A DNA stretch of 64,000 nt from Demequina maris (GTDB lineage: Bacteria; Actinomycetota; Actinomycetes; Actinomycetales; Demequinaceae). Below, one piece after another: positions 218-63,693 of the stretch. Under the pieces are notes generated by a model, which worked only from the letters and a program-made list of their open reading frames with translations, was not told the DNA's origin and did no database searches. The stretch lies in assembly GCF_000971155.1 (NCBI RefSeq), contig NZ_BBLX01000002.1, positions 62,001 through 126,000 of the forward strand. Reading direction: 5' to 3'. Both the position numbers and the translations under genes were made by a program. Position 1 is the first letter of the stretch. The number at the start of each line of letters is the position of its first letter.

Positions 218-260
218 GCGCATCCGGGCGGCGCCTGCGGCGGGACGATGCGCCGGCACC

Positions 261-347
261 GGTGTCGGATCGATGCGGCAGCGGTCCTTCGTAGGGGTCG
301 GATCCGGCACGCCTGACGGATCGATGCGCGTGCGATCCTTCGGACGG
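261..347. repeat. Two imperfect direct repeats between gpmA and phoU
   Basis: The 12-mer CGGATCGATGCG occurs at 266-277 and 317-328. Each copy is followed a few bases later by a GGTCCTTCG or GATCCTTCG string. The rest of the 168-425 gap holds two copies of the GGACGATGCG motif (243 and 357) and a second hairpin; no gene is visible. Confidence 0.5.
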
Positions 348-377
348 CCCGGCCCGCGCATCGTCCCCCGGAACGCC

Positions 378-407
378 GAAGGCCCCGACCGCATGGTCGG
401 GGCCTTC
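378..407 (-). terminator. Hairpin terminator downstream of phoU
   Basis: A 13-bp perfect stem (GAAGGCCCCGACC with its complement) has a 4-nt loop. It lies 18 nt beyond the phoU stop on the minus strand and could serve both directions. Confidence 0.75.
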
Positions 408-425
408 CGCTGTGTGAAGCCGGGT

Positions 426-1085
426 TCAGATCTTGGCGTCGCTGCCCGAGTGGTCGCCGGTGACCAGGTAGACGATGCGGCGGGAGATGCCCACGGCGTG
501 GTCGCCGAAGCGCTCGAAGTAGCGCGCGAGCAGCGCGATGTCGAGCGTGTTCTGGGGCGAGCCCTCGAAGGTGCCGTCGATGAGGCTCTTGTAGGCCTGC
601 TCGTGGAGCGCGTCGAGGGTGTCGTCGTCCTCGACGATCGCGGCGGCCACGTTGAGGTCGCGCGTCTCGAGCAGGCGGATGATCTCACCGGCGGCCTCGA
701 TGGAGGCGGAGCACATCTTCTCGATGATCTCGCGGTGCGAGGCGGGGATGGGCGACTCGGGGTACGAGCGGCGCACGTCCTTGGCGATGTGCGACGCGAG
801 GTCGCCCATGCGCTCGAGCGAGGCCGAGATGCGCAGCGCGGAGATGATGGTGCGCAGGTCGAGGCCCACCGGCTGCTGCTGCGCGATGAGCAGCACGCAG
901 CGCTCGTCGACCTGGGTCTCGAGGTCGTCGAGCTGCTCGTCCTCAGCGATCACGGACTGGGCGGCGTCGAGGTCGCCGGTGAGGATCGCCTCCGCGGCCT
1001 TCGTGATCGCGGTCTCGACGTGACGCGCCATCGCGACGAGGTCCTCGGCCAGGTCCGCCATCTCGGCGTTGAACAGGGTGCGCAT
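426..1085 (-). CDS. phoU: Phosphate-signalling protein PhoU
   Basis: A 219-residue protein of normal PhoU length with two three-helix PhoU repeats. Each carries the metal-binding ExxxD pattern (SLERMGDLASHI near residue 90, YFERFGDHAVGI near residue 195). PhoU links the Pst importer to the sensor kinase and damps Pho activation when phosphate is plentiful. An open frame continues upstream to 1280, but the start at 1085 gives the family N-terminus MRTLFNAEM and has an AAGGAGAG ribosome site just before it. It is divergent from senX3-regX3, with a PHO-like repeat region between. Confidence 0.95.
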   Translation of the reverse strand: MRTLFNAEMADLAEDLVAMARHVETAITKAAEAILTGDLDAAQSVIAEDEQLDDLETQVDERCVLLIAQQQPVGLDLRTIISALRISASLERMGDLASHIAKDVRRSYPESPIPASHREIIEKMCSASIEAAGEIIRLLETRDLNVAAAIVEDDDTLDALHEQAYKSLIDGTFEGSPQNTLDIALLARYFERFGDHAVGISRRIVYLVTGDHSGSDAKI

Positions 1086-1160
1086 GACTCTCCTTGCTTT
1101 CTCTGGGTCCCATCTTGGCATCGCACCTGGGCGGGACGTGCGATCGGCCCACGGAGCAGG

Positions 1161-1203
1161 GTGAACAATCGGTGGCCGTCGTGAACATTGGGTGAACTCC
1201 CAG
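1161..1203. promoter_or_regulatory. PHO-box-like GTGAAC repeats in the phoU/senX3 gap
   Basis: GTGAAC occurs at 1161, 1181 and 1192; the last two are exactly 11 nt apart. This is the reverse complement of the GTTCAC unit of actinobacterial PHO boxes. It is less regular than the box at 3235 but suggests RegX3 autoregulation of the divergent pair. Confidence 0.5.
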
Positions 1204-3036: not shown

Positions 3037-3145
3037 GAGCGCCTCTCCACACACGTGAGGCACTCCTCCACACGAGCGCCCGATTGTGAGCGGGCACACG
3101 GCCTTCGGAGGGACGATGCGCGGGATCCTGTGTGGAGAGGTGCAC
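3037..3145. repeat. 109-bp inverted-repeat element, copy A
   Basis: Begins with GCGCCTCTCCACAC (3039-3052) and ends with the complementary GTGTGGAGAGGTGCAC (3130-3145). An internal copy GCACTCCTCCACAC starts 21 nt after the first, and a TGTGAGCGGGCACACGG block follows. It contains one GGACGATGCG motif (3111). It fills most of the regX3-pstS gap; the remainder holds another motif copy (3176) and the PHO box. Four other copies have exactly the same length. Confidence 0.85.
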
Positions 3146-3234
3146 GGAGCGGGTGGGACGAGGACCTCGCAAACCGGACGATGCGGTCCCCGGGCCGCCC
3201 GCGCATCGTCACGTTTCGATAACGAGGCCGCCCG

Positions 3235-7359: not shown

Positions 7360-7387
7360 GGGGGACGATGCGCACGCATCGTCCCCC
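7360..7387 (+). terminator. Terminator hairpin made of two inverted GGACGATGCG motifs
   Basis: GGGGGACGATGCG (7360-7372) pairs with CGCATCGTCCCCC (7375-7387), leaving only CA between the arms, so the real loop must open a few pairs. It lies 23 nt after pstB and is followed by TTCCTGTT. It is probably the operon terminator. Confidence 0.7.
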
Positions 7388-7413: not shown

Positions 7414-7445
7414 ACGCCGCATCGTCCCGGTGGACGATGCGGCGT
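7414..7445 (-). terminator. Second motif-built hairpin, end of the 7478 gene
   Basis: A perfect 14-bp stem (ACGCCGCATCGTCC with its complement) around a CGGT loop, again from two inverted copies of the 10-mer (7418 and 7432). It lies 32 nt past the stop of the minus-strand lipoprotein gene. Confidence 0.65.
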
Positions 7446-8665: not shown

Positions 8666-9345
8666 CCGTCGCGGCCGTCGTCACGGCCGCGGGCTACGGG
8701 ACCCGGCTCGGGTCCGACCTTCCCAAGGCGCTCGTCGCCGTGGCGGGCATCCCGCTCGTCGCGCACGCCGTGCGCCGCATCGCGCGCGTCGCCACCCAGG
8801 TGGTGGTGACCGCGCCCCCCACCCATCTCGACGCGTTCGCGCGCGCCCTCGACGGACTGGAGGCGCGCATCGTCCCGGGCGCCGGCACGCGCCAGGAGTC
8901 GGTGAGCGCCGGCCTGGCCGCGCTGATGCTCGCGCCCGAGGACATCGTGCTCGTGCACGATGCGGCGCGCGCCTTCCAGCCCGTGCCCACCATGCGCGCC
9001 GTCGTCGCCGCGATCGAGGCGGGCGCGGACGGCGCGATCCCCGTGGTGCCCGTGGTCGACACGCTCGTGACCGCGCCCGGCCCCGACGGAGCGCTCGGCG
9101 AACCCGTCGACCGGACCCTGTTCCGGGCGGTGCAGACCCCGCAAGCCTTCCGCGCCGCGGTGCTGCTCGACGCGCACGAGCGGGGCGGCTCGTCCGCGAC
9201 CGACGACGCGACGCTCGCCCGCACGCTCGGGTACCGCGTGGTCGCGACCGAGGGGCACGAGCGCGGCGTCAAGATCACCCACGCCGGCGACCTCGCGCTC
9301 GCCGAGCACATCGCGGCACTGTCCGCGGAAGAGGAGATGGTGTGA
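8662..9345 (+). CDS. ispD: 2-C-methyl-D-erythritol 4-phosphate cytidylyltransferase
   Basis: A 227-residue enzyme of the MEP pathway that joins MEP and CTP to give CDP-ME. It starts with the nucleotide-binding motif [16 protein letters not shown] and contains LVHDAARAF and the late [13 protein letters not shown]. The GTG start overlaps the carD stop and its own stop overlaps ispF, forming a carD-ispD-ispF unit as in many actinobacteria. A CGCATCGTCC motif at 8866 is read here in the Ala-Arg-Ile-Val frame. Confidence 0.93.
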
Positions 9346-11330: not shown

Positions 11331-11439
11331 GAGCACCCCTCCACACGAACTGAGCGCTCCTCCACACATCCAGCCCGATGTGAACGGGCACACGGCCGGA
11401 TCGGGTGTTCGGCGCATCGTCCCGTGTGGAGAGGCGCAC
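11331..11439. repeat. 109-bp inverted-repeat element, copy B
   Basis: Left end GAGCACCCCTCCACAC and right end GTGTGGAGAGGCGCAC (11424-11439). The internal GCGCTCCTCCACAC and TGTGAACGGGCACACGGCC match copy A. It holds a CGCATCGTCC motif at 11413. It lies between cysS and rlmB in the same orientation as copy A. Confidence 0.85.
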
Positions 11440-14090: not shown

Positions 14091-14199
14091 GTGCGCCTCT
14101 CCACACAGAATCTGCATCTCTCCACCAGCCACCAGGGACGATGCGCGGAGAACGTTCGCCTGGATCGTTTCAGAGCCGCGCGTGTGTGGAGAGGCGCAC
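14091..14199. repeat. 109-bp inverted-repeat element, copy C
   Basis: Perfect 17-bp ends: GTGCGCCTCTCCACACA (14091-14107) and its exact complement (14183-14199). The internal GCATCTCTCCACCAGC starts 21 nt after the first end box. Contains GGACGATGCG at 14136. It belongs with copy E (inverted relative to it) by the shared TGCATCT-TCCACCAGC and GAGCCGCGC blocks. Confidence 0.88.
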
Positions 14200-14223
14200 G
14201 GGGCGCATCGTCCCCGGGAACGC

Positions 14224-15479: not shown

Positions 15480-15640
15480 ACGATCCGTTGTGAAGAGTGC
15501 CGCTGTGGTGTCCACTTTGACACTGCCGGGTTCTGTCCGGCCCGCCCATACTCTCACACCCCGACCGGGACCTGGGACCCCCTCCCGCCCCGGTGCCCGC
15601 GCATCCTCCCGAAGGGCCCTGGTGGGGACGATGCGCCCGG

Positions 15641-15652: not shown

Positions 15653-17248
15653 ATGGCCGGGCTTCAGCGCGAGGTGGGTGACATCGTCGGCGGCTACCGC
15701 GTGCTCGGGCGGCTGGGCTCCGGCGGCTCGGGATCGGTGTACCGGGTGGCCGACGAGGCGGGGCACGAGGCGGCCCTCAAGCTCGTCGACGCGCGCCAGG
15801 ACGAGGTGGCCGCCGCGCGGCTCGCGCGCGAGGTGCGCGCCCTCCAGTCGCTGCGCCACCCCGCGGTCCCGCACATCCTCGACGCCGAGCTCGACGAGGA
15901 CGAGACGTTCGTCGTCTTCGAGCTCGTCCGCGGCGAGACCCTCTTCGACCACGTGCAGCAGCACGGGCCTCTCAAGGGCGACGCGCTCGCGGCGTTCGCG
16001 GACCGCACCGCCTCCGCGCTCGAGGCGGTCCACGCGGCCGGAGTGGTGCACCGCGACGTCACGCCGTCGAACGTGATGATGAGCCCCGAGGGCCCGGTCC
16101 TCATCGACTTCGGGCTCGCGCACCGCTCGGACGACGCGCGCCTCACGCGCGAGGGCCTCGTGAGCGGCACCCCCGGCTATGTCGCGCCCGAGGTGATCGA
16201 CGGCGCCGAGCCCGGCACGCAGGCCGACCGCTGGTCCTGGGCCGCGACCGTCGCATTCGCGATGGCGGGGCGCGGTCCGTTCGGCTCCGGCTCCGGGGCG
16301 ATCGGGCGGACGCTCGAGGACGACGTCACCCTGCCCGACGTGCCGGGCGCGCCCGCGCTGCGCGCCGCGCTCGGCCGCGACGTCAAGGCGCGCCCGGGCA
16401 TGCGCGACGTGGTCGCGGCGCTGCGCGGCGCCACCGTCGCGATGCCGGCGCTGCCGCCCACCGCGGTCGCGCCCACCGGCCTCATGGCCGAGGGCTGGGA
16501 GGACCCCGACGCCACGGCGGTCCTGCCCAGCGGCGAGCAGTCGCTCCCCACGGCCTACGGGGACGATGCGGAGCACCACTGGGTCGAGGACCTCCCGTGG
16601 GAGGAGGACGGCGAGGACGAGCACCACCTCGACGAGGAGCCCGAGGTCTGCCCGGTCGCGCCGCGGCGCAGGCTCCTGCTCGGGCTCGCGGCGCTCGTGG
16701 TGGTCGCCGCCGCTCCGCTCGCGCCCACCCTGTCGTTCCTCGTGATGGCGGGCGTCGCGATCCTCGCGCGCGGGGTGTGGCGCCGCAGCGTCGCGATCCA
16801 GGCCGCCGAGGTCAGGCGCGGCCGCCGCCGCACCTCCGACACCGTGGTGCAGACCATCGGCCTGCCGTGGCACACGCTGCGCGCCGCCGCCGAGGCGGTG
16901 CCGGCCATCCTCACCTCGGCCGCGCTCGGCATCGGCGTCGGCGCCGGGGCATGGTGGCTCGTGTCATCGGGCAACGTCGTCGGCGCATCGTCCGACGCCC
17001 AGTACTACGGTCACGCCGGCGCGCTCGCGCTCGGTGCGCTGGTCGCGGTCGTCGCGATGGCCTACGGGCCCTTCATGTCGGGCACGCGCGAGGGCGCGCA
17101 CCGGATGGCCGCCGCGGTCTCGCCCACGGGCGGGCTGCGCGCCGCGTGGACGCTCGTCGCGCTCACCGCGATCCTGGTCGCCGCGATCGGGATCTACGTG
17201 CAGCTCGCGCCATGGTGGTGGCCGCTGCCGGACCTCGCGATCGGTTGA
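15653..17248 (+). CDS. Membrane Ser/Thr protein kinase
   Basis: A 531-residue Hanks-type kinase. The glycine loop is GRLGSGGSGSVYR, the lysine lies in AALKLVDA, the catalytic loop is HRDVTPSN and the DFG motif DFGLAHR, followed by SGTPGYVAPEV. The kinase domain ends near residue 265. An acidic linker is followed by four hydrophobic segments (about 340-385, 420-445, 450-475, 500-525) without the PASTA repeats of PknB, so the substrate or ligand is unknown. Two GGACGATGCG-type motifs lie in the gene, read as Asp-Asp-Ala and Ala-Ser-Ser, both in non-conserved positions. Confidence 0.88.
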   Translation: MAGLQREVGDIVGGYRVLGRLGSGGSGSVYRVADEAGHEAALKLVDARQDEVAAARLAREVRALQSLRHPAVPHILDAELDEDETFVVFELVRGETLFDHVQQHGPLKGDALAAFADRTASALEAVHAAGVVHRDVTPSNVMMSPEGPVLIDFGLAHRSDDARLTREGLVSGTPGYVAPEVIDGAEPGTQADRWSWAATVAFAMAGRGPFGSGSGAIGRTLEDDVTLPDVPGAPALRAALGRDVKARPGMRDVVAALRGATVAMPALPPTAVAPTGLMAEGWEDPDATAVLPSGEQSLPTAYGDDAEHHWVEDLPWEEDGEDEHHLDEEPEVCPVAPRRRLLLGLAALVVVAAAPLAPTLSFLVMAGVAILARGVWRRSVAIQAAEVRRGRRRTSDTVVQTIGLPWHTLRAAAEAVPAILTSAALGIGVGAGAWWLVSSGNVVGASSDAQYYGHAGALALGALVAVVAMAYGPFMSGTREGAHRMAAAVSPTGGLRAAWTLVALTAILVAAIGIYVQLAPWWWPLPDLAIG

Positions 17249-18742: not shown

Positions 18743-18799
18743 CCGGACGCGCGAGCGCCGCATCGTCCCTCACGGGCGGTGCGGCGCTCGTGCGTCCGG
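18743..18799 (+). terminator. Long hairpin after the DsbA-like gene
   Basis: A 19-bp stem with one mismatch (CCGGACGCGCGAGCGCCGC against GCGGCGCTCGTGCGTCCGG), with a CGCATCGTCC motif overlapping the base of the loop (18759). Confidence 0.75.
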
Positions 18800-19636: not shown

Positions 19637-19757
19637 GCGACGGGACGATGCGCGGGCCGGGCCCCGTCCGCCGCCGGCCCCGTGCGGGCCGCCGCGCGCC
19701 TGTCCGGATAGCCCCGTACGCGCGGTTAGGGTGGTGCCCACCACGAGAGGGGGACGG

Positions 19758-20665: not shown

Positions 20666-20709
20666 GGGACGATGCGCGCCACGCCGTCGGCGAACACCGT
20701 CCACGGCGT

Positions 20710-20743: not shown

Positions 20744-22514
<1,771 letters not shown>

Positions 22515-22583: not shown

Positions 22584-22630
22584 TCGTGCGCGGGGACGAT
22601 GCGGCGGGTGGCCCAACACGCGGCTCGCGC

Positions 22631-44659: not shown

Positions 44660-45355
44660 GTGGAGACCGTGATCCTCACCGACCCGCCGCGCCCGCCCCG
44701 CGAGACGGTCGAGGCGTTCTCGACGATCGGCGTCGCGACCGTGCACGAGGCGATGGGGCGCACGCGGTCGATCTCCGCGCTGCGTCCCATCCAGCAGGGC
44801 ACGCGTGTCGCGGGCACCGCGGTCACGGTGATGAGCTGGCCCGGCGACAACCTCATGATCCACGCCGCGATCGAGCAGTGCGGTCCCGGCGACATCCTCG
44901 TCGTCACCACCCGCGAGCCGTCCTCGCACGGCATGTTCGGCGAGCTGTTCGCGACCGGACTCCAGCGCCGCGGCGTGGTGGGCGCGATCATCGACGCGGG
45001 CGTGCGCGACACCCAGGAGCTGCGCGACATGGGATTCCCGGTGTGGGCGCGCCACATCAACGTCATGGGCACCGTCAAGAGCACGCCCGGCGCGATCAAC
45101 GTGCCGATCGTCGTCGGTGGCCAGGTCATCGACGCGGGCGACATCGTGGTCGCCGACGACGACGGGCTCGTCGTGGTGCCCCGCCAGGAGGCGGACGATG
45201 CGCTGGTGAAGTCCCGCGCGCGCCTGGACAAGGAGGAGGCGACGCGGCAGGCGTTCGTCGGCGGCGAGCTGGGCCTCGACCGCTACGGCATGCGGCCGGT
45301 GCTCGCGGACCTGGGCGTCACGTACCGGCGGCACCCGGAGGCGGACCCCGCATGA
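44660..45355 (+). CDS. galC: 4-carboxy-4-hydroxy-2-oxoadipate aldolase (RraA-like; GalC/LigK)
   Basis: A 231-residue RraA-fold class II aldolase. Key stretches: STIGVATVHEAMGRTRSI, PGDNLMIHAAIEQCGPGDILVV, GVVGAIIDAGVRDTQELRDMGFPVWA (Arg and Asp metal site), and GDIVVADDDGLVVVPR. The family splits 4-carboxy-4-hydroxy-2-oxoadipate into pyruvate and oxaloacetate and can decarboxylate oxaloacetate. Start GTG at 44660. It overlaps the tautomerase gene by four bases. Confidence 0.85.
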   Translation: METVILTDPPRPPRETVEAFSTIGVATVHEAMGRTRSISALRPIQQGTRVAGTAVTVMSWPGDNLMIHAAIEQCGPGDILVVTTREPSSHGMFGELFATGLQRRGVVGAIIDAGVRDTQELRDMGFPVWARHINVMGTVKSTPGAINVPIVVGGQVIDAGDIVVADDDGLVVVPRQEADDALVKSRARLDKEEATRQAFVGGELGLDRYGMRPVLADLGVTYRRHPEADPA

Positions 45356-46434
45356 CCGGCATCCCCTGCGCGCTCATGCGCGGCGGCACCTCCAAGGGAG
45401 GGATCTTCCTCGCGGAGGACCTGCCCGCGGATCCCGCCGCGCGCGACGACCTGCTGCTGCGGATCATGGGCAGCCCCGACCTCCGTCAGATCGACGGGCT
45501 CGGCGGCGCGCACCCGCTCACCAGCAAGGTCGGCGTGGTGAGCCGCGCGGGGGACGATGCGGCGGACATCGACTACCTGTTCCTCCAGGTCGCGGTGGAC
45601 AAGCCGGTCGTGTCGACCTCGCAGACGTGCGGCAACATCCTCGCGGCCGTGGCGCCGTTCGCGATCGAGCGGGGCCTCGTGCCCGCGCGCGACGGCGCGA
45701 CCGTGGTGCGGGTGCGCATGGTCAACACCGGCACCGTCGCGGCGCTGACCGTGCGGACGCCGGGCGGCGAGGTCACGTACGACGGCGACGCCGAGATCTC
45801 CGGGGTCCCCGGGACGGCCGCGCCGGTGGAGGTCGCGGTCGAGCCCGCGGCGGGTGCGCTGCTGCCCACCGGCAACCCGGTCGACCGCATCGCCGGGGTG
45901 GACGCGACGCTCATCGACAACGGCATGAAGTCCGTGCTCGTGCGTGCGGCGGACCTCGGCATCGTGGGCGACGAGGACCCGGCCGCGCTCGAGGCGGACC
46001 CCGAGGTGGTGCGACGCGTGGCCGAGATCCGCGAGGCGGCCTTCCCGCTCATGGGCATCGACGGCACGCCCGAGTCCACCACCACGCCGAAGATCGTGCT
46101 GCTCTCCGCGCCGGCGGAGGGGGGCGCGATCCGCACCCGCAGCTTCATCCCGTTCCGCGTGCACGAGGCCATCGGCGTGCTCGGCGCGGCCTCCATCGCC
46201 GCGGGCCTCCGCGTGGCGGGGACGGTCGCCGACGGCCTCGCGGTGCTCCCGCCGGACGGGGCGCCGCTGCGCGTCGAGCACCCCACCGGCTTCCTCGACC
46301 TGCACGTGGACCCCGTCCCCGGCGATCCGGGCGCGGTGGGGGAGACCCGCGTGATCCGCACCGCCCGCATGATCATGGACGGGCGCGTGCACCCGCGCAG
46401 CGCATCGGTGCCCGTCGCGAAGGAGCCGTCATGA
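45352..46434 (+). CDS. galD: 4-oxalomesaconate tautomerase (PrpF family; GalD/LigU)
   Basis: A 360-residue PrpF/DapF-like isomerase with the family start PCALMRGGTSKGGIFLAEDL, the catalytic-cysteine-type SQTCGNILAAVAPFA and the later NGMKSVLVRAADLGI. GalD interconverts enol and keto forms of 4-oxalomesaconate ahead of hydration. Its position between the aldolase and LigJ supports this over a PrpF (methylaconitate) role. The motif at 45552 is read Asp-Asp-Ala. The start and stop overlap both neighbours. Confidence 0.85.
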   Translation: MTGIPCALMRGGTSKGGIFLAEDLPADPAARDDLLLRIMGSPDLRQIDGLGGAHPLTSKVGVVSRAGDDAADIDYLFLQVAVDKPVVSTSQTCGNILAAVAPFAIERGLVPARDGATVVRVRMVNTGTVAALTVRTPGGEVTYDGDAEISGVPGTAAPVEVAVEPAAGALLPTGNPVDRIAGVDATLIDNGMKSVLVRAADLGIVGDEDPAALEADPEVVRRVAEIREAAFPLMGIDGTPESTTTPKIVLLSAPAEGGAIRTRSFIPFRVHEAIGVLGAASIAAGLRVAGTVADGLAVLPPDGAPLRVEHPTGFLDLHVDPVPGDPGAVGETRVIRTARMIMDGRVHPRSASVPVAKEPS

Positions 46435-47324
46435 TGATGCCCAAGGTCGCCCTGATCGGGCTCGGAGAGGTGGGGCGGGTCTTCGTCGAGGACCTGCGCG
46501 GCGCGGGGCTCGCCGACATCACCGCGTGGGACTCGGCCTTCGCCGACCCGGGCAGCAAGGCCTCGCATCACGCGCGTGTGCTCGCGCTCACCCCCGCGGC
46601 GAGCGCCGCCGAGGCGGTCGCGGGCGCGGACCTCGTCGTGTCCGCGGTGACCGCGATGAACTGCGTGCCCGCCGCATCGTCCGTCGCCCCGGCGATCGCG
46701 CCCGGCGCCTGGTACCTCGACCTCAACTCGAGCTCGCCGGGCCACAAGCATGAGGCGGCCGCGCAGGTGCACACGGCCGGCGGCCGCTACGTCGAGGCGG
46801 CCCTGATGTCGCCGATCGAGCCGCGCCGGCTCGCGTCGCCGTTCATCCTCGGCGGCCCGCATGCGGAGCGCTTCGCCGAGGCGGCGGGCCGCTTCGGGAT
46901 CACCGCCGCCACGGTCGGATCGGAGGAGATCGGCGTGGCCGCGGCCACCAAGCTGTGCCGTTCGGTCGTGGTGAAGGGGCTCGAGGCGCTGCTGTCGGAG
47001 TCGCTGCTCGCCGCCCGCCACTACGGCGTGGACCGCGAGGTCATCGCGTCGCTGTCCAACATCCTCCCCGAGGCCGACTGGGAGGCGATCGCCGGCTACT
47101 TCATGTCGCGCTCGCTCCAGCACGGCGGGCGCCGTGCGGAGGAGATGGAGGAGGCCGCCCAGACCGTGGCCGAGGCCGGCATCACGCCATGGATGGCGTC
47201 GGCGACGGTCGAGCGGCAGCGGTGGGCCGCGCAGTTCGGCGAGGTGCTGCCGCAGGAGACCACCCCCGCGCTCGTCGATGCCATCAGGCTCGCGGCGGGG
47301 CTGTACGAGGAGGGTGACGGATGA
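46431..47324 (+). CDS. 6-phosphogluconate-dehydrogenase-like oxidoreductase (DUF1932)
   Basis: A 297-residue NAD(P)-binding protein. The N-terminal Rossmann motif is VALIGLGEVGRVFVED; the middle has LDLNSSSPGHK and AALMSPIEP, with KLCRSVVVKGLEAL in the helical C-terminal DUF1932-type domain (Lys). It belongs to the beta-hydroxyacid dehydrogenase group. Such genes recur in 4-oxalomesaconate clusters but no step is assigned; oxidation of a hydroxy-acid feeding the pathway is inference. Three ATG codons open the gene; the first overlaps the tautomerase stop. Confidence 0.8.
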   Translation: MMMPKVALIGLGEVGRVFVEDLRGAGLADITAWDSAFADPGSKASHHARVLALTPAASAAEAVAGADLVVSAVTAMNCVPAASSVAPAIAPGAWYLDLNSSSPGHKHEAAAQVHTAGGRYVEAALMSPIEPRRLASPFILGGPHAERFAEAAGRFGITAATVGSEEIGVAAATKLCRSVVVKGLEALLSESLLAARHYGVDREVIASLSNILPEADWEAIAGYFMSRSLQHGGRRAEEMEEAAQTVAEAGITPWMASATVERQRWAAQFGEVLPQETTPALVDAIRLAAGLYEEGDG

Positions 47325-48440: not shown

Positions 48441-48490
48441 GGCGGGGCGCGGAGGGACGATGCGGCGGTGACCTTGGTCCCTCGCTGACG

Positions 48491-50475: not shown

Positions 50476-50557
50476 GGACGATGCGCGGTCACGGGGGCCG
50501 CCCGGGCAGGGGGATACTGGCCGGGCGGGCCCGTCCGCCCGCGTCCCCGGAGGCACC

Positions 50558-51922: not shown

Positions 51923-53248
51923 GTGACCCAGCCGCCCGCGCCCACGATGCGCGCCCGCGCGCCCCGGGCGGCCTGGCTCGTGCTGATCTCCGGCATGGCG
52001 CTGTACTTCGTGGCGATCGTCAACCGCACCGCGCTCGGCGTCGCCGGCGTCGCGGCGCTCGACCGCTTCGGCATCGAGGCCGCGTGGCTGTCGATCCTCG
52101 CGATCGCGCAGGTCGCGACCTACGCGGCGCTGCAGCTGCCCGCGGGCGCGCTGCTCGACCGCTGGGGCGCGCGCCGGCTCATGATCGGCGGCGCGCTGCT
52201 GATGGCGGCCGGCACCGCGCTGCTCGCCGTCACCACGAGCCTGCCGCTCGCGATCCTCGCGCGCGTGCTCATCGGGGCGGGCGACGCCCCCATCTTCATC
52301 TCCGCGTGCCGGCTCATCCCGCTGTGGTTCCCGCCTCGCCGCGTGCCGGTGCTCGTGCAGGTCACGGGCCTCGTGGGGCAGGCCGGCCAGCTCGCGACCT
52401 CCATCCCCGTCGCGTGGCTGCTGCGCGACCTCGGGTGGAGCGCCACGTTCGCGGTGCTCGGCGCGGCCACCCTTGCCGTCGCCGCGCTCGCGTTCCGGGG
52501 AATCCGGGTGCCGCCCGCCGACCCCGGGACGCGCACCGTCGCCGCCCCCGCATCGTCCCTGCGCGAGTCCATCCGCGTCGCCTCGCGCCCGGCGGGCACG
52601 CGTCTGGGCTTCTGGACGCACTTCCTGTCGCTGTGCTCGGCCAACACGGTCGCGCTGCTGTGGGGCGTGCCGTTCTTCGTCTCCACCCAGGGCCTGTCGC
52701 TGGCCGAGGCGAGCGCGCTGCTCATGGTCATCACTCTCACCAAGATGGCCGCGGGCCCGCTCGCTGGCTCCTTCACCGCGCGCCATCCGCTGCGCCGCAG
52801 CTGGCTGGTGATCGGCTCCGCCATCGCGACGGCTGCCGCGTGGGTCGCGATCCTCGCGCCGTCCACGCCGCGCCCGGTGTGGGAGCTCGGCGTGCTCATG
52901 GCGGTGATCGGCGCGGGCGGCCCCGTGTCCCTCATCGCGCTCGACTACGCGCGCACCTTCGGCCCCGAGGAGGCGATGGGCACCGCGACCGGCTTCGTGA
53001 ACGTCGGCGGCTTCGTGTCGACCATCCTCGGCATCGTGCTCGTGGGCGTCACGCTGCAGGTGGTCTCGCCCGACGGCGCCGCGACCTACACGCTCGACGA
53101 ATACCGGATCGCGTTCGCGACGCTGCTCATCCCGTGGGTCATGGGGATGGCCGGGGTGCTGCGCAACCGCCGCCTCGCGCGCGCCGACATGGCCGCCGCC
53201 GGCGTCGTGGTGCCGCCGCTGCGCGAGGCGCTCAGAAGGCTCCGATAA
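51923..53248 (+). CDS. MFS transporter, second of a tandem pair
   Basis: 441 residues, a paralogue of the preceding gene: shared AIVNRTALGVAGV, ARVLIGAGDAPIFI, TRLGFW-HFLSL and the end MAA-GVVVPPLREALRR. The GTG at 51923 has CGGAGGG upstream. An Ala/Arg-rich start precedes helix 1. The motif at 52549 lies in a cytoplasmic loop, read Ala-Ser-Ser. Confidence 0.85.
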   Translation: MTQPPAPTMRARAPRAAWLVLISGMALYFVAIVNRTALGVAGVAALDRFGIEAAWLSILAIAQVATYAALQLPAGALLDRWGARRLMIGGALLMAAGTALLAVTTSLPLAILARVLIGAGDAPIFISACRLIPLWFPPRRVPVLVQVTGLVGQAGQLATSIPVAWLLRDLGWSATFAVLGAATLAVAALAFRGIRVPPADPGTRTVAAPASSLRESIRVASRPAGTRLGFWTHFLSLCSANTVALLWGVPFFVSTQGLSLAEASALLMVITLTKMAAGPLAGSFTARHPLRRSWLVIGSAIATAAAWVAILAPSTPRPVWELGVLMAVIGAGGPVSLIALDYARTFGPEEAMGTATGFVNVGGFVSTILGIVLVGVTLQVVSPDGAATYTLDEYRIAFATLLIPWVMGMAGVLRNRRLARADMAAAGVVVPPLREALRRLR

Positions 53249-53461
53249 GGGACGATGGTGACGTTCACATCGCGGGTTTGACGGGGGGCCACCCGTGGTC
53301 CCACAATCCTCACAACAGTGCGTGTCGGCTGCACAAGTCGGCGCGCACTGTCTCTTTTTCCGGTCTGTCCGGGATGCGTGGACGATGCGCGTCGCGGGTG
53401 GGCCCGGCGGGCGGCGGCGTGGTGCGCGGAAGCGCCGTGACCGGACCGTTACCGTAGGACG
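53249..53461. other. Intergenic region between the MFS pair and the large helicase-like gene
   Basis: A T-rich stretch CTCTTTTTCCG near 53355 stands out. One GGACGATGCG motif (53380) and a near-match GGACGATGG (53253) are present. An open frame starting near 53295 has no codon pattern of its own. The helicase promoter lies at the end. Confidence 0.5.
53450..53455 (+). promoter_or_regulatory. -10 box (TACCGT) for the leaderless helicase-like gene
   Basis: TACCGT ends 6 nt before the GTG at 53462; no ribosome site. Confidence 0.55.
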
Positions 53462-56400
53462 GTGGTCGACTACATCGGGCGCGCGCTCGTCGCGGACGCC
53501 CTGCGCGAATGGAGGGAGCAGCTCCAGCAGCTGGCGACCGTCTCGCCGCTGCGGGACCTCGCGCTGAGCGAGACGACCACGGTGGACCTGCGGGGCTCGC
53601 ATCCCGGCGGGCTGGCCCCGCTGTTCGCCGGCCGCGCCACCTCTCTCGGCGTCCTCATCCGCGACCCCGAGCTGTACGCGCAGGCGCTCCACCGCATCCG
53701 CCTCATCCGCGAGAACGCCGAGCGCGTCAAGGCCGCGACCGGCGTGTGGACCGCCGCGATGGTCATCGGCACCGTCGCGTGGGACGAGGACGGCCGCCGC
53801 CGCGAGATGCCGCTCGTGATGCGCCCCGTCCACTTCGAGCCGGCGCGCCAGGGCGACGTCCTGCTCACCATGCTCGACGAGGTCGCGGTCAACCCCGTGT
53901 TCCTCACCGAGGCGCGCGACCGCGGCGTCGACACCGGCCTCGCCGGCTTCCTGCCGCAGGCCGGCCCGGGCCTCGAGTTCGACCCGCGCCCGCTGTGGCA
54001 GCACGTCCGCACGCTCGGCGAGGCGTTCCCCGGCATCGAGGTCGTGGACCGCCTGTTCGTGGGCGCGTTCGACGACCCCGAGCAGCGCCTCCTCGACGAC
54101 CTCGACGACATGGACCCCGTCATCGGCGCGTCCGACATCCTCGCGGCCACCGCGGGCGACCAGGACGCGCAGGCGCTGCTCGCGCAGCCGCTCCCCGCCT
54201 TCCCCGTGGGCGACCGCGACCCGTTCGCGGAGCGCGGCGTCGGCGACCTCGACGACGTCGAGTTCGCCGCGCTCGACCTCATCGCGACCGGCCGCTCGGT
54301 CTTCCTGCAGGCGCCGCCCGGATCCGACCCGGTGGGCGCCGTCGCGGCCATCGTGGCCGATGCGGCGGCCTCCGGTCGCGCCGTCATGGCCGTGGGTGGC
54401 ACCGAGCAGTCGGTGCGCGCGGTCGCGAAGCGCCTGGACCGCGTCGGCGTGTCCGAGGCGTACGTGTCCGGCGCGGTGGCGTCGTGGAACGAGACCGCCC
54501 GTCGCCGCCTGCTGACCTCGATGACGATGGGGGTCGAGGACGTCGAGGACGAGCGCCTGCGCGCGGCGGGCGAGAGCCTCCTCACGGCGCGCCACGAGCT
54601 CGAGACGCGCCTCGACGCGCTCCACCGCCCGCATCGTCCCTGGGACGTGAGCGCGTACGACGCCGTGCAGGCCGTCGTGCGCCTCATCTCCACCTCCCCC
54701 GCGCCCCAGACCCAGCTGCGCCTGGGCGCCGAGGCCGCCGCGCTGGTCGCCGAGCACGGCTTCGCGTCCGTCGCGCAGGCGATCGTCGAACGCCTGCGCC
54801 CCGACGCCGCGCCCGAGGAGCCCGCGCCCACGACCTCGCAGGCGACGACCGTGCTCGTGCCGTGGTGGTCCGAGGTGACGGACGACGCCGAGGAGGGCGC
54901 CCGCCTCGACGAGGCGCTCGCGACCCTCGTGGTGCGCCACGTGCCCAAGATGCGCGCCGAGGCGCAGATCGCGGCGCACGAGACCGGGATGGACGAGGCG
55001 CCCACGATCGCCGCGTGGGCCGACCAGGTGGGCCTCTTCACGGACCTGCGCGCGACGCTGGAGATCTTCTCGCCGGCGGTCTTCCACCGCTCGCTGCACG
55101 ACCTCGTCGCCGCCACGGCGCCCCTCGGCACCCCGCAGGCCGGCGCGCTCGCGCGCCGCGACCGTCGCGCGCTCCGCCGCCGCGCCGTCGAGCTGCTGCG
55201 CCCGGGGCGCACCAAGGACGACCTGCACGAGAACCTCGTCGCCGCGCACGCGCAGGCGCTGCGCTGGCGCGCGCACTGCTCGGCCGGCGGCTGGCCCCTC
55301 GTGCCCGACGACTTCGACCTCTACGCGGACCGCATCGAGAACGTGCTGCGGCTGTGGTCGCGACTCGCGGGGCCGGTCGCCCAGGTCTCCGGCGAGGACG
55401 ACCTGCTCGACCAGCCGTGGGAGCACGTCCGCGAGGTGCTCGAGCGGCTCGCCGAGGGCGTGCCCGGCACGCTCGAGGCGGCCGAGGCGGTGCCGGTCGA
55501 GCGCGACCTCGAGTCCGCGGGCCTGGGCCCGCTGCTGGCCGAGCTGGCCGCGCGGGACGAGGCCGACGCCTCGCCCGAGCAGGTGCGCCGCGACCTCGAG
55601 TTCGCGTGGTGGGCCTCGGCCTTCGACGCGATCGTGTCCGCGGACCCGCGGCTCACGGAGGAGGGCGCGGTCGGCCGCGTCGTCGAGCAGTTCCTGGTGC
55701 GCGACCGCGAGTTCTCTGAGGCCCGCGTGGGGCCGCTCATGCGCGCCGTCGCCGAGCGTCGCCGCATCGCGATCGCCCGCCACCCCGACTTCGCGCGCGA
55801 CCTGTTCGCCACGCTCGTCGAGGGCGCCGATGCGCCGTACCGCGAGCTCTGGCGCGACCACCAGCCGCTCGTGAGCGCCCTGCGCCCCATCACGCTCGCG
55901 ACCGCCGAGCAGGTGTCACGCCTCGCCCCGCCGACGCGCTGCCTCGACGTGGCGGTCGTGTTCGGCGCCGAGTCCCTCGCGCTCGCGGAGACCGTCCCGA
56001 CGCTCGCGCGGGCCCGCCAGGTGGTCGTTGTCGGCGACGCCGAGTCCGCGACCCGCAGCGCCGTCGCGGTGTTCGCGCAGATGCTCCCGCGCGTGCCGCT
56101 GCACGCGCTGCCGCAGCCGCGCGACCCGCGCGTCACGGGCGTGCTCGGCACGCTCGCGTACGGGCGCTCGCTCAGCTCGCTGCCGTCCGCCGGCATCCCG
56201 CACGCGCTCGACGTGACCGTGCTCGACGCGACCGGCTCCGCCGCCGCGGGCGAGCGCGCCGTCGAGTCCACGCATGCCGAGGTCGCGGCCGTGATCGACC
56301 ACGCCGACCGCGTGGTCCACTCGATGCCGCGCCGCACGCTCGCGATCGTCGCGGGCAACGAGCTCCACGCGGCCCGGATCCGCGACACGCTCGACGAGCG

Positions 56401-57655
56401 CGGCGCACGCCTCGCCGAGGCCGTCACCGTCGTGACGTTCGGCAACGCCGCGGGCCTCGACGTCGACGAGGCGATCCTCACCCTCGGCTACGCCCGCGAC
56501 GCGCAGGGCACGCTGCCTGCGCGGCTCGGCGCGCTCTCGGAGGAGTGGGGCGCGCAGGCGCTCGCCCAGGCGGTGGTCGCGAGCCACGAGCGCCTCACGG
56601 TCGTCACCGCGCTGGGCGCGGACGACCTCGCGGCGATCGCCGAGGGCGCCGAGGCCGACGCGATCGACGGCCTGCGCGAGCTCGTGCTCGCGGTGGCCAC
56701 CGAGCCGGTTCCGCCGGAGCGTCCCGAGCCCGCGCCGGGCGACTGGCTGCTCGCCGACATCGCCGGCCGCGTGCGCGCCGAGGGCTACGCGGTGCACGTG
56801 CGCTACGGCGCCGGCGCCGACGCGATCCCGCTTGTGGTCGGCGGTCGTCACGACCGCGGCTACCGCGTCGCGGTCGTCACGGACGAGGCGGCGCGCACCG
56901 GCTCGGCCAGCGTGCGTGATCGCATGCGCCACCAGTACGCGAGCCTCGAGGCGCTCGGCTGGACCGTCGTGTCCCTGTGGACGCTCGACGTGTTCATGGA
57001 CCCCGAGGCCGCCGTCGCCGCGATCGTCGACGCGGTCGAGCGCGAGAAGGCGCCGCTCGTGTGGGAGCAGCCCACCCTGGACCTCGGCGTCGAGACGTCG
57101 GAGATCCGCGTGCCCGCGGAGGACGTGTTCGACCTCGACAAGGTCGACGACGTCACCGGCGCGATCCCGGAGCTGCGGGCCGAGGAGCCCCCGGCCGCGC
57201 CCGTCGAGACCCCGGCCGAGCCCGAGGCGCCGGACGTCACTCTCGGCATCTCGGTGATGCTCGCGGAGCAGATCCTCGCCGACAAGGTCGAGACGCGCGC
57301 GCTGCAGCAGGTGCAGGCCGAGCTCGACTTGAAGGGCGCCGCCGACGAGGCGGACGATGAGCCCATGACCGACGAGATCGTCGAGACCGACGAGACCGAT
57401 GCGCGGGAGCCGGAGGAGCCCGAGGCCGAGGCCGCCGAGCCCGAGTCCGACCAGGACGAGGCGCCTGCCGAGACCGACGCGACCGACGCATCGTCCCTGC
57501 CCTCGCCGCCGCCCATCCGGCCGGCGTCGCGCGGCTCCGGCCGCCCGCTCATCCCGACGCGGGCGAGCGAGGACCTCGACGAGGGCTGGGGCGGCTCGCA
57601 CGGCGGCTCGAGCCGCGACGAGGAGATCAAGCGGGAGCGTCCGCCGCACTGGTGA
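53462..57655 (+). CDS. Large helicase/nuclease-like protein with degenerate catalytic motifs
   Basis: 1397 residues. The order resembles DUF4011-type SF1 helicases: an N-terminal domain, a Walker A position reading FLQAPPGSDPVGAV (about 281-295) without the GKT/S, a long helical insert, a position like DEASQ reading LDVAVVFGAESL followed by RQVVVVGDAES (about 826-861), then a C-terminal Vsr-like domain (about 1094-1190; AVVTDEA, SVRDRMRHQYASLEALGWTVVSLWTLDVFMDPE). The Walker lysine, the acidic pair of motif II, and the nuclease Asp and Glu appear lost. An acidic 160-residue tail follows. It is probably a non-catalytic scaffold; function unknown. Confidence 0.72.
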   Translation: MVDYIGRALVADALREWREQLQQLATVSPLRDLALSETTTVDLRGSHPGGLAPLFAGRATSLGVLIRDPELYAQALHRIRLIRENAERVKAATGVWTAAMVIGTVAWDEDGRRREMPLVMRPVHFEPARQGDVLLTMLDEVAVNPVFLTEARDRGVDTGLAGFLPQAGPGLEFDPRPLWQHVRTLGEAFPGIEVVDRLFVGAFDDPEQRLLDDLDDMDPVIGASDILAATAGDQDAQALLAQPLPAFPVGDRDPFAERGVGDLDDVEFAALDLIATGRSVFLQAPPGSDPVGAVAAIVADAAASGRAVMAVGGTEQSVRAVAKRLDRVGVSEAYVSGAVASWNETARRRLLTSMTMGVEDVEDERLRAAGESLLTARHELETRLDALHRPHRPWDVSAYDAVQAVVRLISTSPAPQTQLRLGAEAAALVAEHGFASVAQAIVERLRPDAAPEEPAPTTSQATTVLVPWWSEVTDDAEEGARLDEALATLVVRHVPKMRAEAQIAAHETGMDEAPTIAAWADQVGLFTDLRATLEIFSPAVFHRSLHDLVAATAPLGTPQAGALARRDRRALRRRAVELLRPGRTKDDLHENLVAAHAQALRWRAHCSAGGWPLVPDDFDLYADRIENVLRLWSRLAGPVAQVSGEDDLLDQPWEHVREVLERLAEGVPGTLEAAEAVPVERDLESAGLGPLLAELAARDEADASPEQVRRDLEFAWWASAFDAIVSADPRLTEEGAVGRVVEQFLVRDREFSEARVGPLMRAVAERRRIAIARHPDFARDLFATLVEGADAPYRELWRDHQPLVSALRPITLATAEQVSRLAPPTRCLDVAVVFGAESLALAETVPTLARARQVVVVGDAESATRSAVAVFAQMLPRVPLHALPQPRDPRVTGVLGTLAYGRSLSSLPSAGIPHALDVTVLDATGSAAAGERAVESTHAEVAAVIDHADRVVHSMPRRTLAIVAGNELHAARIRDTLDERGARLAEAVTVVTFGNAAGLDVDEAILTLGYARDAQGTLPARLGALSEEWGAQALAQAVVASHERLTVVTALGADDLAAIAEGAEADAIDGLRELVLAVATEPVPPERPEPAPGDWLLADIAGRVRAEGYAVHVRYGAGADAIPLVVGGRHDRGYRVAVVTDEAARTGSASVRDRMRHQYASLEALGWTVVSLWTLDVFMDPEAAVAAIVDAVEREKAPLVWEQPTLDLGVETSEIRVPAEDVFDLDKVDDVTGAIPELRAEEPPAAPVETPAEPEAPDVTLGISVMLAEQILADKVETRALQQVQAELDLKGAADEADDEPMTDEIVETDETDAREPEEPEAEAAEPESDQDEAPAETDATDASSLPSPPPIRPASRGSGRPLIPTRASEDLDEGWGGSHGGSSRDEEIKRERPPHW

Positions 57656-61414: not shown

Positions 61415-61694
61415 GCCGCCCGGTTCGACGCATCGTGCTCTGAGCCGCGCCGCCACCTCGCAGCGCGCCTCGGCCTGACGGCCAGGACGGTCCGCACCCC
61501 CACCTGACGCAACCGGCGTACGGGAGCGGGGACGATGCGCATCGTGCCTGGTCGCGGCTACCGGCGCCGATCTCATGCGCCGGTTCGGTGCGGGCGCGGG
61601 CGGCCGAGGACGGGCGACGACCGGCGAGGAGGCGCGGGAGCGGGCCGCCGCCGACCCACCCGACCCTTCCCGTTGCGACCCTCTCCGGACATGG

Positions 61695-61712
61695 TTACTG
61701 TCCTGTCAGTAA
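61695..61712. promoter_or_regulatory. Operator-like dyad TTACTG-N6-CAGTAA
   Basis: A perfect 6-bp dyad, 45 nt before the ATG at 61757. It joins directly to the dyad at 61711. Confidence 0.6.
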
Positions 61713-61730
61713 TGGACAAGGATGTCCATT
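61711..61730. promoter_or_regulatory. Operator-like dyad AATGGACA-N4-TGTCCATT
   Basis: A perfect 8-bp inverted repeat with a 4-nt centre, 27 nt before the ATG, overlapping the TTACTG dyad by two bases. Probably a repressor site for the beta-helix gene. Confidence 0.65.
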
Positions 61731-61756
61731 GCACCTCAAAGGAGAGGAAACGCCGC

Positions 61757-63649
61757 ATGACGCATCACCCGACCGGCCGGTTCCGCCGAGGCCTCGCCCT
61801 CGCCGCCGGCGTCACGCTCGTCGCGGGAGCGGCGGTGGCCGCACCGGCCGCCGCGGCCCCGCCGCAGGACATCGACCCGACGGCGCCCGACCTGGGCCCG
61901 AACGTGACGATCATCGACCCCACCATGACCACCGCCGAGATCCAGGGGATCGTCGACGACCTGGTCGACCAGCAGCGCGACGCCGAGATGACCACGGCGC
62001 GCCACGCCGTGCTCTTCCTGCCGGGCGAGTACGGCGCCCCCGGCGCCCCCCTCCAGATCGAGGTGGGGTACTACACCGAGATCGCGGGCCTGGGCGCGAT
62101 GCCCGACGACGTGACCATCACCGGCAAGGCCGACGTCTACAACCGCTGCCTCGGCGACGACGCGAACCCCAACTGCATCGCGCTGGTGAACTTCTGGCGC
62201 ACCCTGTCCAACCTCGCCGTCCACGTCGACGGCACCGGCCAGGACGGCTGCCGCGCGAGCGGCAACTTCTGGGCCGTCTCGCAGGCGGTGTCGATGCGGC
62301 GGGTCGACATGTCGGGCGGGAACCTCACCCTGATGGACTACTGCACCGCCGGCCCGCAGTACGCCAGCGGCGGGTTCATCGCGGACTCGCGCCTGCCGTT
62401 CACCATCAACGGCTCGCAGCAGCAGTGGCTCACCCGCAACAGCGAGGTGGCCGGCTGGAGCAACGGCGTCTGGAACCAGGTCTTCGCCGGAGTCGTGGGC
62501 GCACCGGGCGACGCGGCCTTCCCCGCCGAGCCGTACACGACGCTCGACACCACCCCGCTCAGCCGGGAGAAGCCCTACCTCTACGTCGACGACGACGGCG
62601 TCTACCAGGTGCGCGTCCCGTCCGCGGCGCGCGACACCGCGGGCATCAGCTGGGCCGACGGGATGACGCCCGGCCGCTCGATCCCGATCGACGAGTTCTA
62701 CATCGCCCGCCCCGGCGACAGCGTCCAGGAGATCAACAACGCCCTCGCCCGGGGCCGGCACCTGCTGCTCACGCCCGGCGTCTACGACATCGCGCGCAGC
62801 ATCGAGGTCAAGCGTCCCGACACCGTCGTCCTCGGCATCGGCCACGCGACCCTCACCGCGGTGGGAGGCGCGACGCCGCTGCGCGTCGCCGACGTCCCCG
62901 GCGCGATCGTCGCGGGGGTCACCATCGACGCGGGCGAGACGCTCTCGCCGGTCCTGCTCGAGGTGGGCAAGAGGAACGGCACGAACGGGTCCAATGCCCG
63001 TGCCGCCGCCGACAACCCCACCACGCTGTCCGACGTGTACTTCCGCGTCGGCGGCCCGCACATCGGCCGCACCGAGACCGCCCTCGTGGTCAACAGCGAC
63101 GACGTCCTCATCGACCACACCTGGGTGTGGCGGGGCGACCACGGCGTCGAGGGCTTCACGGAGGGCGTCAACGGCGACACCGACCGGTGGGCGACCAACA
63201 CCGGCCTCGACGGCGTGGTCGTCAACGGCGACCGCGTGACCGCGACCGGGCTGTTCGTCGAGCACTTCCAGCGCTACAACACGCTCTGGAACGGCGAGGA
63301 CGGCACGGTGGTGCTCTACCAGAACGAGCTGCCCTACGACCCGCCCACGCAGGCCGACTGGACCCAGCCCGACGGCACCCTCGGCTACCCGGGCTACAAG
63401 GTCGCCGACGACGTCTCGACGCACCGCCTGTACGGCGCGGGGGTCTACGTGTTCAACCAGAACAACCCGGAGATCCTGACCGCCAACGGCTTCGAGGTGC
63501 CGGAGGTGCCGGGCGTGCAGCTGCACCACCTCATGACGGTCAACCTCAGCGCGGGGACCATCGAGCACGTGGTCAACGGCGTCGGCGACGCCGCCGACAT
63601 GGACCACGTGGGGGCGCCGGCCTACCTCGTCGGCTACCCGGCCCCCTAG
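61757..63649 (+). CDS. Secreted right-handed beta-helix protein
   Basis: A 630-residue secreted protein. Signal peptide (1-35, ending AAPAAAA), then repeated short beta strands typical of a pectin-lyase-type helix: HAVLFLPGEYGAPGAPLQIEVGYYTEIAGLG, GFIADSRLPFTINGSQQQWLTRNS-like turns, LLLTPGVYDIARSIEVKRPDTVVLG and VLIDHTWVWRGDHG (written here in short pieces of the run). Relatives in Streptomyces are annotated adenylyl cyclase without support; a carbohydrate-active role is more likely. AGGAGAGG ribosome site. Two dyads upstream predict inducible control. Confidence 0.78.
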   Translation: MTHHPTGRFRRGLALAAGVTLVAGAAVAAPAAAAPPQDIDPTAPDLGPNVTIIDPTMTTAEIQGIVDDLVDQQRDAEMTTARHAVLFLPGEYGAPGAPLQIEVGYYTEIAGLGAMPDDVTITGKADVYNRCLGDDANPNCIALVNFWRTLSNLAVHVDGTGQDGCRASGNFWAVSQAVSMRRVDMSGGNLTLMDYCTAGPQYASGGFIADSRLPFTINGSQQQWLTRNSEVAGWSNGVWNQVFAGVVGAPGDAAFPAEPYTTLDTTPLSREKPYLYVDDDGVYQVRVPSAARDTAGISWADGMTPGRSIPIDEFYIARPGDSVQEINNALARGRHLLLTPGVYDIARSIEVKRPDTVVLGIGHATLTAVGGATPLRVADVPGAIVAGVTIDAGETLSPVLLEVGKRNGTNGSNARAAADNPTTLSDVYFRVGGPHIGRTETALVVNSDDVLIDHTWVWRGDHGVEGFTEGVNGDTDRWATNTGLDGVVVNGDRVTATGLFVEHFQRYNTLWNGEDGTVVLYQNELPYDPPTQADWTQPDGTLGYPGYKVADDVSTHRLYGAGVYVFNQNNPEILTANGFEVPEVPGVQLHHLMTVNLSAGTIEHVVNGVGDAADMDHVGAPAYLVGYPAP

Positions 63650-63659
63650 GGGACGATGC

Positions 63660-63693
63660 GGGGCCCCGGTCGCCCGAGAGCGGCCGGGGCCCC
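63660..63693 (+). terminator. Terminator between the beta-helix and glycosyltransferase genes
   Basis: GGGGCCCCGGTCG pairs with CGGCCGGGGCCCC (one wobble) with an 8-nt loop. A GGACGATGCG motif (63651) abuts the TAG stop at 63647-63649. Confidence 0.75.

Follow-up and report, generated by a model that had tools for sequence, protein, structure and literature searches.

The 10-base word GGACGATGCG, which recurs throughout the 64,000-nucleotide stretch of the Demequina maris genome analysed here (henceforth the window), is quite probably a self-DNA uptake sequence, and this putative sequence occurs in dialects within its Actinomycetota genus. The dialects found in sister species are the strongest evidence for this reading; natural competence, sequence-specific binding, the identity of the receptor and the drive that would spread the word are what we infer. 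A first-pass annotation of the window had counted about 48 copies, 25 in one orientation and 23 in the other, and our recount of exact copies gave the same figures (25 on the plus and 23 on the minus strand, the first at 243 and the last at 63651-63660; Table 1), with GGACGATGCG being the top-ranked 10-mer of the window by count. The near-matches mentioned in that annotation were also recovered, GCACGATGCG being present in 6 copies. Dinucleotide shuffles of the window (n = 100) contained a mean of 1.13 copies and a maximum of 4, compared to the 48 observed. Classed against the calls of a simple, uncurated codon-usage gene finder, 25 of the 48 copies were wholly intergenic and 23 wholly within genes, with intergenic sequence making up 9.6% of the window; the early estimate that about half lie between genes therefore holds, as does the remark that three copies sit right after a stop codon, one of which abuts the gene end and two of which begin one base past it.

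The density of the word is not specific to the window. In the whole genome (G000, 2,966,865 bases on 22 contigs, 98.84% complete, ~72% G+C; other G numbers denote the genomes compared, and C a contig of the genome in question) we counted 1,480 copies, 751 on the plus and 729 on the minus strand, or one per 2.0 kb, while the reversed word used as a control was found twice. This count was a check set beforehand and rejects a quirk of the window, in which the word is ~1.5 times as dense as in the genome as a whole. Among the best 80 matches kept from a scan of named genomes with the cysS-like protein, none was closer than 66% identity (Cellulosimicrobium), and the nearest matches place the host among the actinobacteria. 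Placement was assessed in a non-overlapping genome sample of 846,116 bases, window included, which held 452 copies where 13.7 were expected (a 33-fold enrichment). Relative to 786 called genes, 312 of the sampled copies were wholly coding, 3 partly so and 137 intergenic on 10.6% of the sequence, a density between genes 3.7 times higher; per kb, convergent gaps held 2.88 copies, divergent ones 1.75 and tandem ones 1.69, compared to 0.41 for genes. Most sampled copies had no neighbour inside 60 bp, and of the 33 close neighbours (<60 bp) 24 formed inverted pairs, i.e. neighbouring copies in opposite orientation (P = 0.007). The gaps between copies looked random (mean 1,636, coefficient of variation 1.0), counts per 20 kb were fairly even (mean 10.6, variance 14.9 in 42 chunks) and orientation was unrelated to GC skew, our strand proxy for the replichore with the replication origin not located (G-rich strand 220 copies, C-rich strand 227; r = 0.06 in 42 chunks).

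Base composition and codon use, both raised by the first-pass annotation as possible causes, each failed to account for these numbers. The coding copies mainly occupied the phases x-Asp-Asp-Ala (160) and, on the opposite strand, x-Ala-Ser-Ser (83) and Arg-Ile-Val (47), and shuffling synonymous codons within genes (n = 30) left 31.8 copies (standard deviation 4.5) compared to the 312 observed. The competing GGACGACGCG was under-represented (31 copies compared to 76 in the synonymous shuffles), a deficit that fits a choice of GAT over GAC where the word results. Outside the 10-mer, the 452 copies shared only the three-base rhythm of codon phase, with a top flank information of 0.33 bit, and a mobile repeat of the REP (repetitive extragenic palindromic) or MITE (miniature inverted-repeat transposable element) type was rejected because the flanks share nothing beyond it. 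One 20-kb stretch (G000:C21:1-20000) contained no copy at all; it has a G+C content of 63.6% compared to ~72% for the genome, carries nucleotide-sugar genes (named by eye) and looks like a surface-sugar island of outside origin, and the absence of the word would be expected if this DNA came from elsewhere.

To follow the word in related genomes, we obtained whole-genome counts for 44 genomes (species) of the genus. GGACGATGCG was present in 711-1,564 copies in 15 species and in 10-235 copies in the remaining 29, of which 12 contained 352-1,203 copies of GGCCGATGCG (reversed control ≤35 in these 12); G017, one of the 15, bears both words (GGACGATGCG 927, GGCCGATGCG 483). A third word, GCCCGACGC(G/T), reached 804 copies in G026 and 970 in G037 (controls 90 and 50) and at most 229 in the other 42 genomes, being mildly raised in G043 (229 vs 62), G004 (182 vs 71), G013 (159 vs 63) and G036 (145 vs 51). 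By these counts 29 of the 44 species have a recognisable dialect. The words of sister species depart from GGACGATGCG by one to three letters, and the core CGATGC is common to the two main dialects and reads CGACGC in the third. Variants with a final C or T were prominent in sampled sequence (35-99 kb) from G003, G005, G007, G016, G022 and G032 (e.g. GGCCGATGCT, 14 vs 0.3 expected in G005, and GGACGATGCC, 11 vs 0.7 in G022) and weak in G012 and G021; the sampled sequence was too small to judge for G013 (27 kb), G033 (30 kb), G036 (12 kb) and G039 (<1 kb). On a tree of 26 species, which was built from pilus-locus proteins and is a proxy rather than a species tree, at least four switches between the two main dialects are required, and among the 20 species with the separately encoded pilin described below there are four, with 292 of 300 label shuffles needing at least five. 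Dialect is thus inherited, yet switches do occur. In the same order outside the family, GGMCGATGCG did not exceed 254 copies in 360 of 361 drawn genomes. The sole clear excess among the 361 was in G351 (family f11, genus g13), with 607 copies compared to 43 for the control, and G351 is absent from the 85 of 396 genomes that have a strong match resembling that pilin.

Mismatched copies indicate which parts of the word are tolerant of change. With a fourth-order background in which perfect copies were masked as the expectation, one-mismatch copies numbered 496 in total compared to 283 expected. The excess was seen at position 1 (A 22 vs 4.3, C 74 vs 34.5, T 17 vs 7.7), position 2 (C 66 vs 13.9, A 17 vs 5.3), position 3 (C 55 vs 16.1) and position 10 (T 16 vs 5.1, A 9 vs 3.1), and within the CGATGC core it was restricted to T7 to G (60 vs 30.4), which inside genes equalled the synonymous expectation (59 vs 60.2), and C9 to T (9 vs 3.6). 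Because the excess lies at the edges and hardly any of it in CGATGC, the core is strict and the edges are loose; GGACGATGCG and GGCCGATGCG differ at position 3, and the weaker variants at positions 3 and 10.

Competence and tight-adherence genes, to which the first-pass annotation had pointed as a check, are both present in the genome in the form of ComEA, ComEC, a type IVa pilus and two Tad-like (tight adherence) loci. The type IVa pilus operon is on C22, flanked by aroE-like and aroC-like genes, and contains pilB, pilT, pilC, a pilin gene, PilV-, PilW- and PilX-like genes, pilD, pilM, pilN and pilO, most of these names being assigned by eye. PilT scored 483 bits (NCBIfam cut-off 319), PilM 139 (cut-off 133) and PilB 467 against PF00437, and PilC and the tested piece of PilB matched their own families below the single-model NCBIfam cut-offs; the genome also has a second PilT-like gene. 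ComEA and ComEC are adjacent on C14 and passed the Pfam cut-offs for HHH_3, SLBB and Competence, their scores with the NCBIfam ComEC/Rec2 and comEA models being below the cut-offs of those models. ComEC (PF03772) and PilM were each found in 43 of the 44 genomes, G036 (85% complete) having neither; as PF03772 was also matched in 10 of 14 control genomes, ComEC is no proof of competence. Two architectures of the pilus operon exist in the genus (L179-L218), one with small PilV/PilW-like minor pilins and a ~600-residue PilX-like protein and the other with one ~600-residue minor pilin and a PilW-like one. The word is strikingly absent from the pilus operon itself, 12.6 kb of which (G000:C22:138959-151547) contain no copy. 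Taken together, the pilus operons of 25 species (the two main dialects comprise 27) hold 20 word copies compared to 105.7 expected from genome averages, an expectation that is somewhat high since the stretch is mostly coding, and their G+C content is also lower; the short flanks of these operons hold 31 copies compared to 21.9 expected.

A search for pilin leaders revealed, in most genomes, a pilin encoded outside the operon, and the chances that this orphan pilin, our candidate, is the receptor for the word seem to us evenly balanced. We extracted 31 orphan-pilin sequences and set aside one pilin from G022 and a second one from G043 as being of another type. The leader of the orphan pilin matched N_methyl (PF07963) with 27.5 bits (cut-off 21.2). 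Its neighbours in eight genomes beside G000 included an acetyltransferase-like gene in all eight and metE in seven (in pieces in G011), and in G000 both are near it, with one gene intervening before metE (names by eye). Two cysteines, C105 and C135, are invariant in 15 aligned sequences and are the two cysteines of the G000 protein, and the part past the N-terminal region matched none of the families or solved structures searched. Among 113 variable columns of the alignment, that of Ile55 in G000 (column 69) was the sole one to split the dialects cleanly: all 12 GGACGATGCG species having the orphan pilin contain Ile and all nine GGCCGATGCG species Val. Val is also present in G003, G005 and G021, which have GGCCGATGC-type words and stood outside the test. 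At a second column, Asn132, Asn occurs in 8 of the 12 GGACGATGCG species and Gln in 4 of the 9 GGCCGATGCG species, with Asn also in G021 and G043. Proteins at L281, L284-L287, L288 and L290 have no usual pilin leader and a C-terminal half like that of the orphan pilin, and two of them contain a WYxDP...RYWDGxAWT stretch near the start.

Several results weigh against an uptake function or against the part proposed for this pilin. No clear dialect was detected in samples of 95-131 kb each from G004, G034 and G043 despite the presence of PilM and ComEC, and the genome has a second kind of pilus to consider in its two Tad-like loci, recognised by gene order and PF00437 matches. The Ile55 column was picked post hoc among the 113. 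In eight comparison proteins with 1,485 variable columns in total, no column separated the labels using at most four residues, but each of these proteins had 24-26 labelled species to satisfy, compared to 21 for the orphan pilin, and the comparison left out PilV, PilW, PilX, PilN and PilO. PilT, PilM and PilC also have columns with dialect information above that of label shuffles, and whole-protein distance of the orphan pilin did not follow dialect once pilus-locus distance was removed (partial r 0.013, p 0.34, 20 species). The two GCCCGACGC species, whose word alters the core, disagree at the Ile55 column (one Ile, the other Val). A separate intact orphan pilin was not found in G006, G014 and G042 (GGACGATGCG) or in G027 and G040 (GGCCGATGCG); the operon pilins of G006, G014, G042 and G040 scored 128-154 bits with the orphan profile. 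Finally, the orphan-pilin frame is broken in G002 (on C6), a third GGCCGATGCG species, through decay or an assembly error, yet this genome has ~1,000 copies of its own word.

The first-pass annotation had left uptake, marking and nucleoid binding side by side as functions of the word, and of these we favour uptake over the other two. A protein acting internally on the chromosome, such as a nucleoid organiser, or one that uses a Chi-like recombination hotspot or a segregation guide like KOPS (FtsK orienting polar sequences), might have the word as its site, in which case selection on chromosome behaviour would hold the word and it would drift with the protein; the genome-wide presence of the word and its fairly even counts per 20 kb would agree with this, and a co-evolving protein could likewise yield dialects. 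We nevertheless consider it quite unlikely, because ~1,500 exact 10-mers, mostly in codons, would be a heavy load for architecture, the 20-kb stretch without a copy would leave a hole and inverted pairs at gene ends are not predicted. Moreover, the orientation of Chi and KOPS is biased along the replichore, and a guide of this type was rejected because the orientation of GGACGATGCG is biased neither by contig strand nor by GC skew, which bears out the argument made earlier from its balanced strands. HIP1 of cyanobacteria is a palindromic word, and a HIP1-like element was rejected since GGACGATGCG is not its own reverse complement. A protective modified site marking self DNA for a restriction-modification or defence system would suit words that differ between species, a logic of self and non-self and the absence from a putatively foreign stretch, but restriction and defence sites are neutral or avoided rather than enriched 33-fold, and one-base dialects within a genus would demand a matching change in the enzyme and in hundreds of sites, which makes this very unlikely. 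As for an origin in terminators, in mobile repeats or as a side effect of codon or base composition, inverted pairs at gene ends could stop transcripts and the host has 72% G+C, but such origins are refuted as a full explanation and retain virtually no probability: most copies are wholly coding (312 of 452, so that the motif does not lie only in terminators), most lie at least 60 bp from the next copy and their flanks are unshared, while composition falls short in the dinucleotide shuffles (1.1 vs 48), in the synonymous shuffles (31.8 vs 312) and in the same-order genomes outside the family, G351 excepted.

In a variant of the uptake reading, DNA would be caught by a Tad (Flp) pilus; the model for this is Micrococcus luteus, whose transformation needs tad genes (PMC4322843). 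The two Tad-like loci make this conceivable, and the case resembles M. luteus as actinobacterial natural transformation with comEA/comEC, here predicted from genes and there named as loci in a figure legend (PMC4322843). We regard it as unlikely, since the pilin that splits by dialect has a leader of the type IVa type with N_methyl above the cut-off, PilM, a type IVa pilus protein, is present in 43 of 44 species, and the M. luteus paper contains none of the terms 'uptake sequence', 'USS' and 'DUS'. The pili of Actinobacteria studied so far are type IVc pili (Tfpc) according to a review of monoderm pili (PMC6916266), so that a route based on a type IVa pilus would be unusual there.

In the uptake process that we favour, a competent cell would bear a type IVa pilus (PilB, PilC, PilM, PilN, PilO) with a pilin that binds free DNA tagged with GGACGATGCG, a part for which the ~135-residue orphan pilin by metE is the candidate. 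Retraction driven by PilT would bring the DNA to the cell surface, and ComEA would pass it to ComEC, through which a single strand would enter and then recombine. Tagged DNA would be taken up more often, and recombination would spread and keep tagged alleles, causing the word to accumulate genome-wide, more readily in intergenic sequence and in low-cost codon phases. As receptor specificity drifted the word would drift along with it, giving the dialects of sister species.

Self-DNA uptake words are known from two proteobacterial families, Neisseriaceae and Pasteurellaceae; the uptake signal sequences (USS) of the latter have extended AT-rich flanks, and ComP, the pilin that serves as receptor in Neisseria, is encoded apart from the pilus operon. 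We lean towards GGACGATGCG belonging to a third uptake system of independent origin, in which a 10-base tag would be read by a type IVa pilus, an orphan pilin other than ComP would set the dialect, several switches would have occurred and species would be separated by as little as one base. The DNA uptake sequence (DUS) dialects of Neisseriaceae differ by single bases, have a core common to all and occur as dyad pairs (Frye et al. 2013, PMC3630211), and GGACGATGCG is similarly a short exact word of high copy number, arranged in dyads, with dialects of one or a few bases and a shared core. It differs from DUS in that the word is unrelated (core CGATGC here, CTG there), the host is a high-GC actinobacterium, one dialect changes the core (CGACGC) and the system is known from sequence alone. 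The likeness to USS (PMC7811141, PMC12616744) lies in a copy number of hundreds to thousands, in the two dialects and in a proposed minor-pilin receptor, while the word is different and nothing is conserved past the 10-mer. In Neisseriaceae the ComP tree is largely congruent with dialect (PMC3630211), and ComP is marked by four cysteines that form a DD region with two disulphides (PMC4906244). The orphan pilin resembles ComP as a small type IV pilin outside the pilus operon with a cysteine-bounded C-terminal region, but it has two conserved cysteines and no four-cysteine DD region and was therefore not filed as ComP. In Streptococcus pneumoniae, DNA-binding residues are reported in other minor pilins (PMC12040237). 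We found no earlier report of an uptake sequence in Actinomycetota among the open-licence papers listed, and a literal search of the open-licence literature for the word gave, among the matches listed, none that by title concerned bacterial uptake words.

A genus with 15, 12 and 2 species by dialect makes it possible to ask whether the principle of a pilin receptor arose once or repeatedly, which residues determine the word, and whether gene flow between species is restricted by the tag. If the third-system reading is true, dialect differences of as little as one base would keep species apart in gene exchange. Adding the word to donor DNA may open a little-studied group to transformation.

Table 1. 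Positions of GGACGATGCG in the window and of the candidate receptor gene elsewhere in the genome.
Feature	Position	Strand	Context
GGACGATGCG copy	243..252	+	intergenic
GGACGATGCG copy	357..366	-	intergenic
GGACGATGCG copy	3111..3120	+	intergenic
GGACGATGCG copy	3176..3185	+	intergenic
GGACGATGCG copy	7363..7372	+	intergenic, convergent gap; inverted pair with 7375
GGACGATGCG copy	7375..7384	-	intergenic; inverted pair with 7363
GGACGATGCG copy	7418..7427	-	intergenic; inverted pair with 7432
GGACGATGCG copy	7432..7441	+	intergenic; inverted pair with 7418
GGACGATGCG copy	8866..8875	-	within gene
GGACGATGCG copy	11413..11422	-	intergenic, after cysS-like gene
GGACGATGCG copy	14136..14145	+	intergenic
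GGACGATGCG copy	14204..14213	-	intergenic
GGACGATGCG copy	15626..15635	+	intergenic, divergent gap
GGACGATGCG copy	16561..16570	+	within gene
GGACGATGCG copy	16984..16993	-	within gene
GGACGATGCG copy	18759..18768	-	intergenic
GGACGATGCG copy	19613..19622	-	5' end of called gene; inverted pair with 19643
GGACGATGCG copy	19643..19652	+	intergenic; inverted pair with 19613
GGACGATGCG copy	20667..20676	+	one base past gene ending at 20665
GGACGATGCG copy	20828..20837	-	intergenic, upstream of groEL-like gene (named by eye)
GGACGATGCG copy	22594..22603	+	intergenic
GGACGATGCG copy	24211..24220	-	intergenic
GGACGATGCG copy	24244..24253	-	intergenic
GGACGATGCG copy	24986..24995	+	within gene
GGACGATGCG copy	25556..25565	+	within gene
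GGACGATGCG copy	26350..26359	-	within gene
GGACGATGCG copy	27459..27468	+	within gene
GGACGATGCG copy	28520..28529	+	within gene
GGACGATGCG copy	29967..29976	-	within gene
GGACGATGCG copy	33138..33147	-	intergenic
GGACGATGCG copy	34860..34869	+	within gene
GGACGATGCG copy	35821..35830	-	within gene
GGACGATGCG copy	36045..36054	-	within gene
GGACGATGCG copy	37128..37137	+	within gene
GGACGATGCG copy	37905..37914	-	within gene
GGACGATGCG copy	39247..39256	+	within gene
GGACGATGCG copy	44634..44643	-	within gene
GGACGATGCG copy	45193..45202	+	within gene
GGACGATGCG copy	45552..45561	+	within gene
GGACGATGCG copy	46673..46682	-	within gene
GGACGATGCG copy	48455..48464	+	intergenic
GGACGATGCG copy	50476..50485	+	directly past gene ending at 50475
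GGACGATGCG copy	52549..52558	-	within gene
GGACGATGCG copy	53380..53389	+	intergenic
GGACGATGCG copy	54630..54639	-	within gene
GGACGATGCG copy	57487..57496	-	within gene
GGACGATGCG copy	61530..61539	+	intergenic
GGACGATGCG copy	63651..63660	+	one base past gene ending at 63649
orphan pilin (candidate receptor)	G000:C15:81993-82409	-	~135 residues, near metE

Two further observations concern other repeated sequences in the compared genomes. In G044, which belongs to another genus of the family (L119, L133, L134), the overlapping words CCGTGCGGAC and ACCCGTGCGG were over-represented, the first with 10 copies compared to 0.3 expected in 60 kb, and this set may be either a repeat or another uptake-like word. 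In the G043 samples, G/C runs of at least nine bases were frequent (36 nine-mer windows compared to 0.7 expected in 131 kb) and are perhaps phase-variable tracts.

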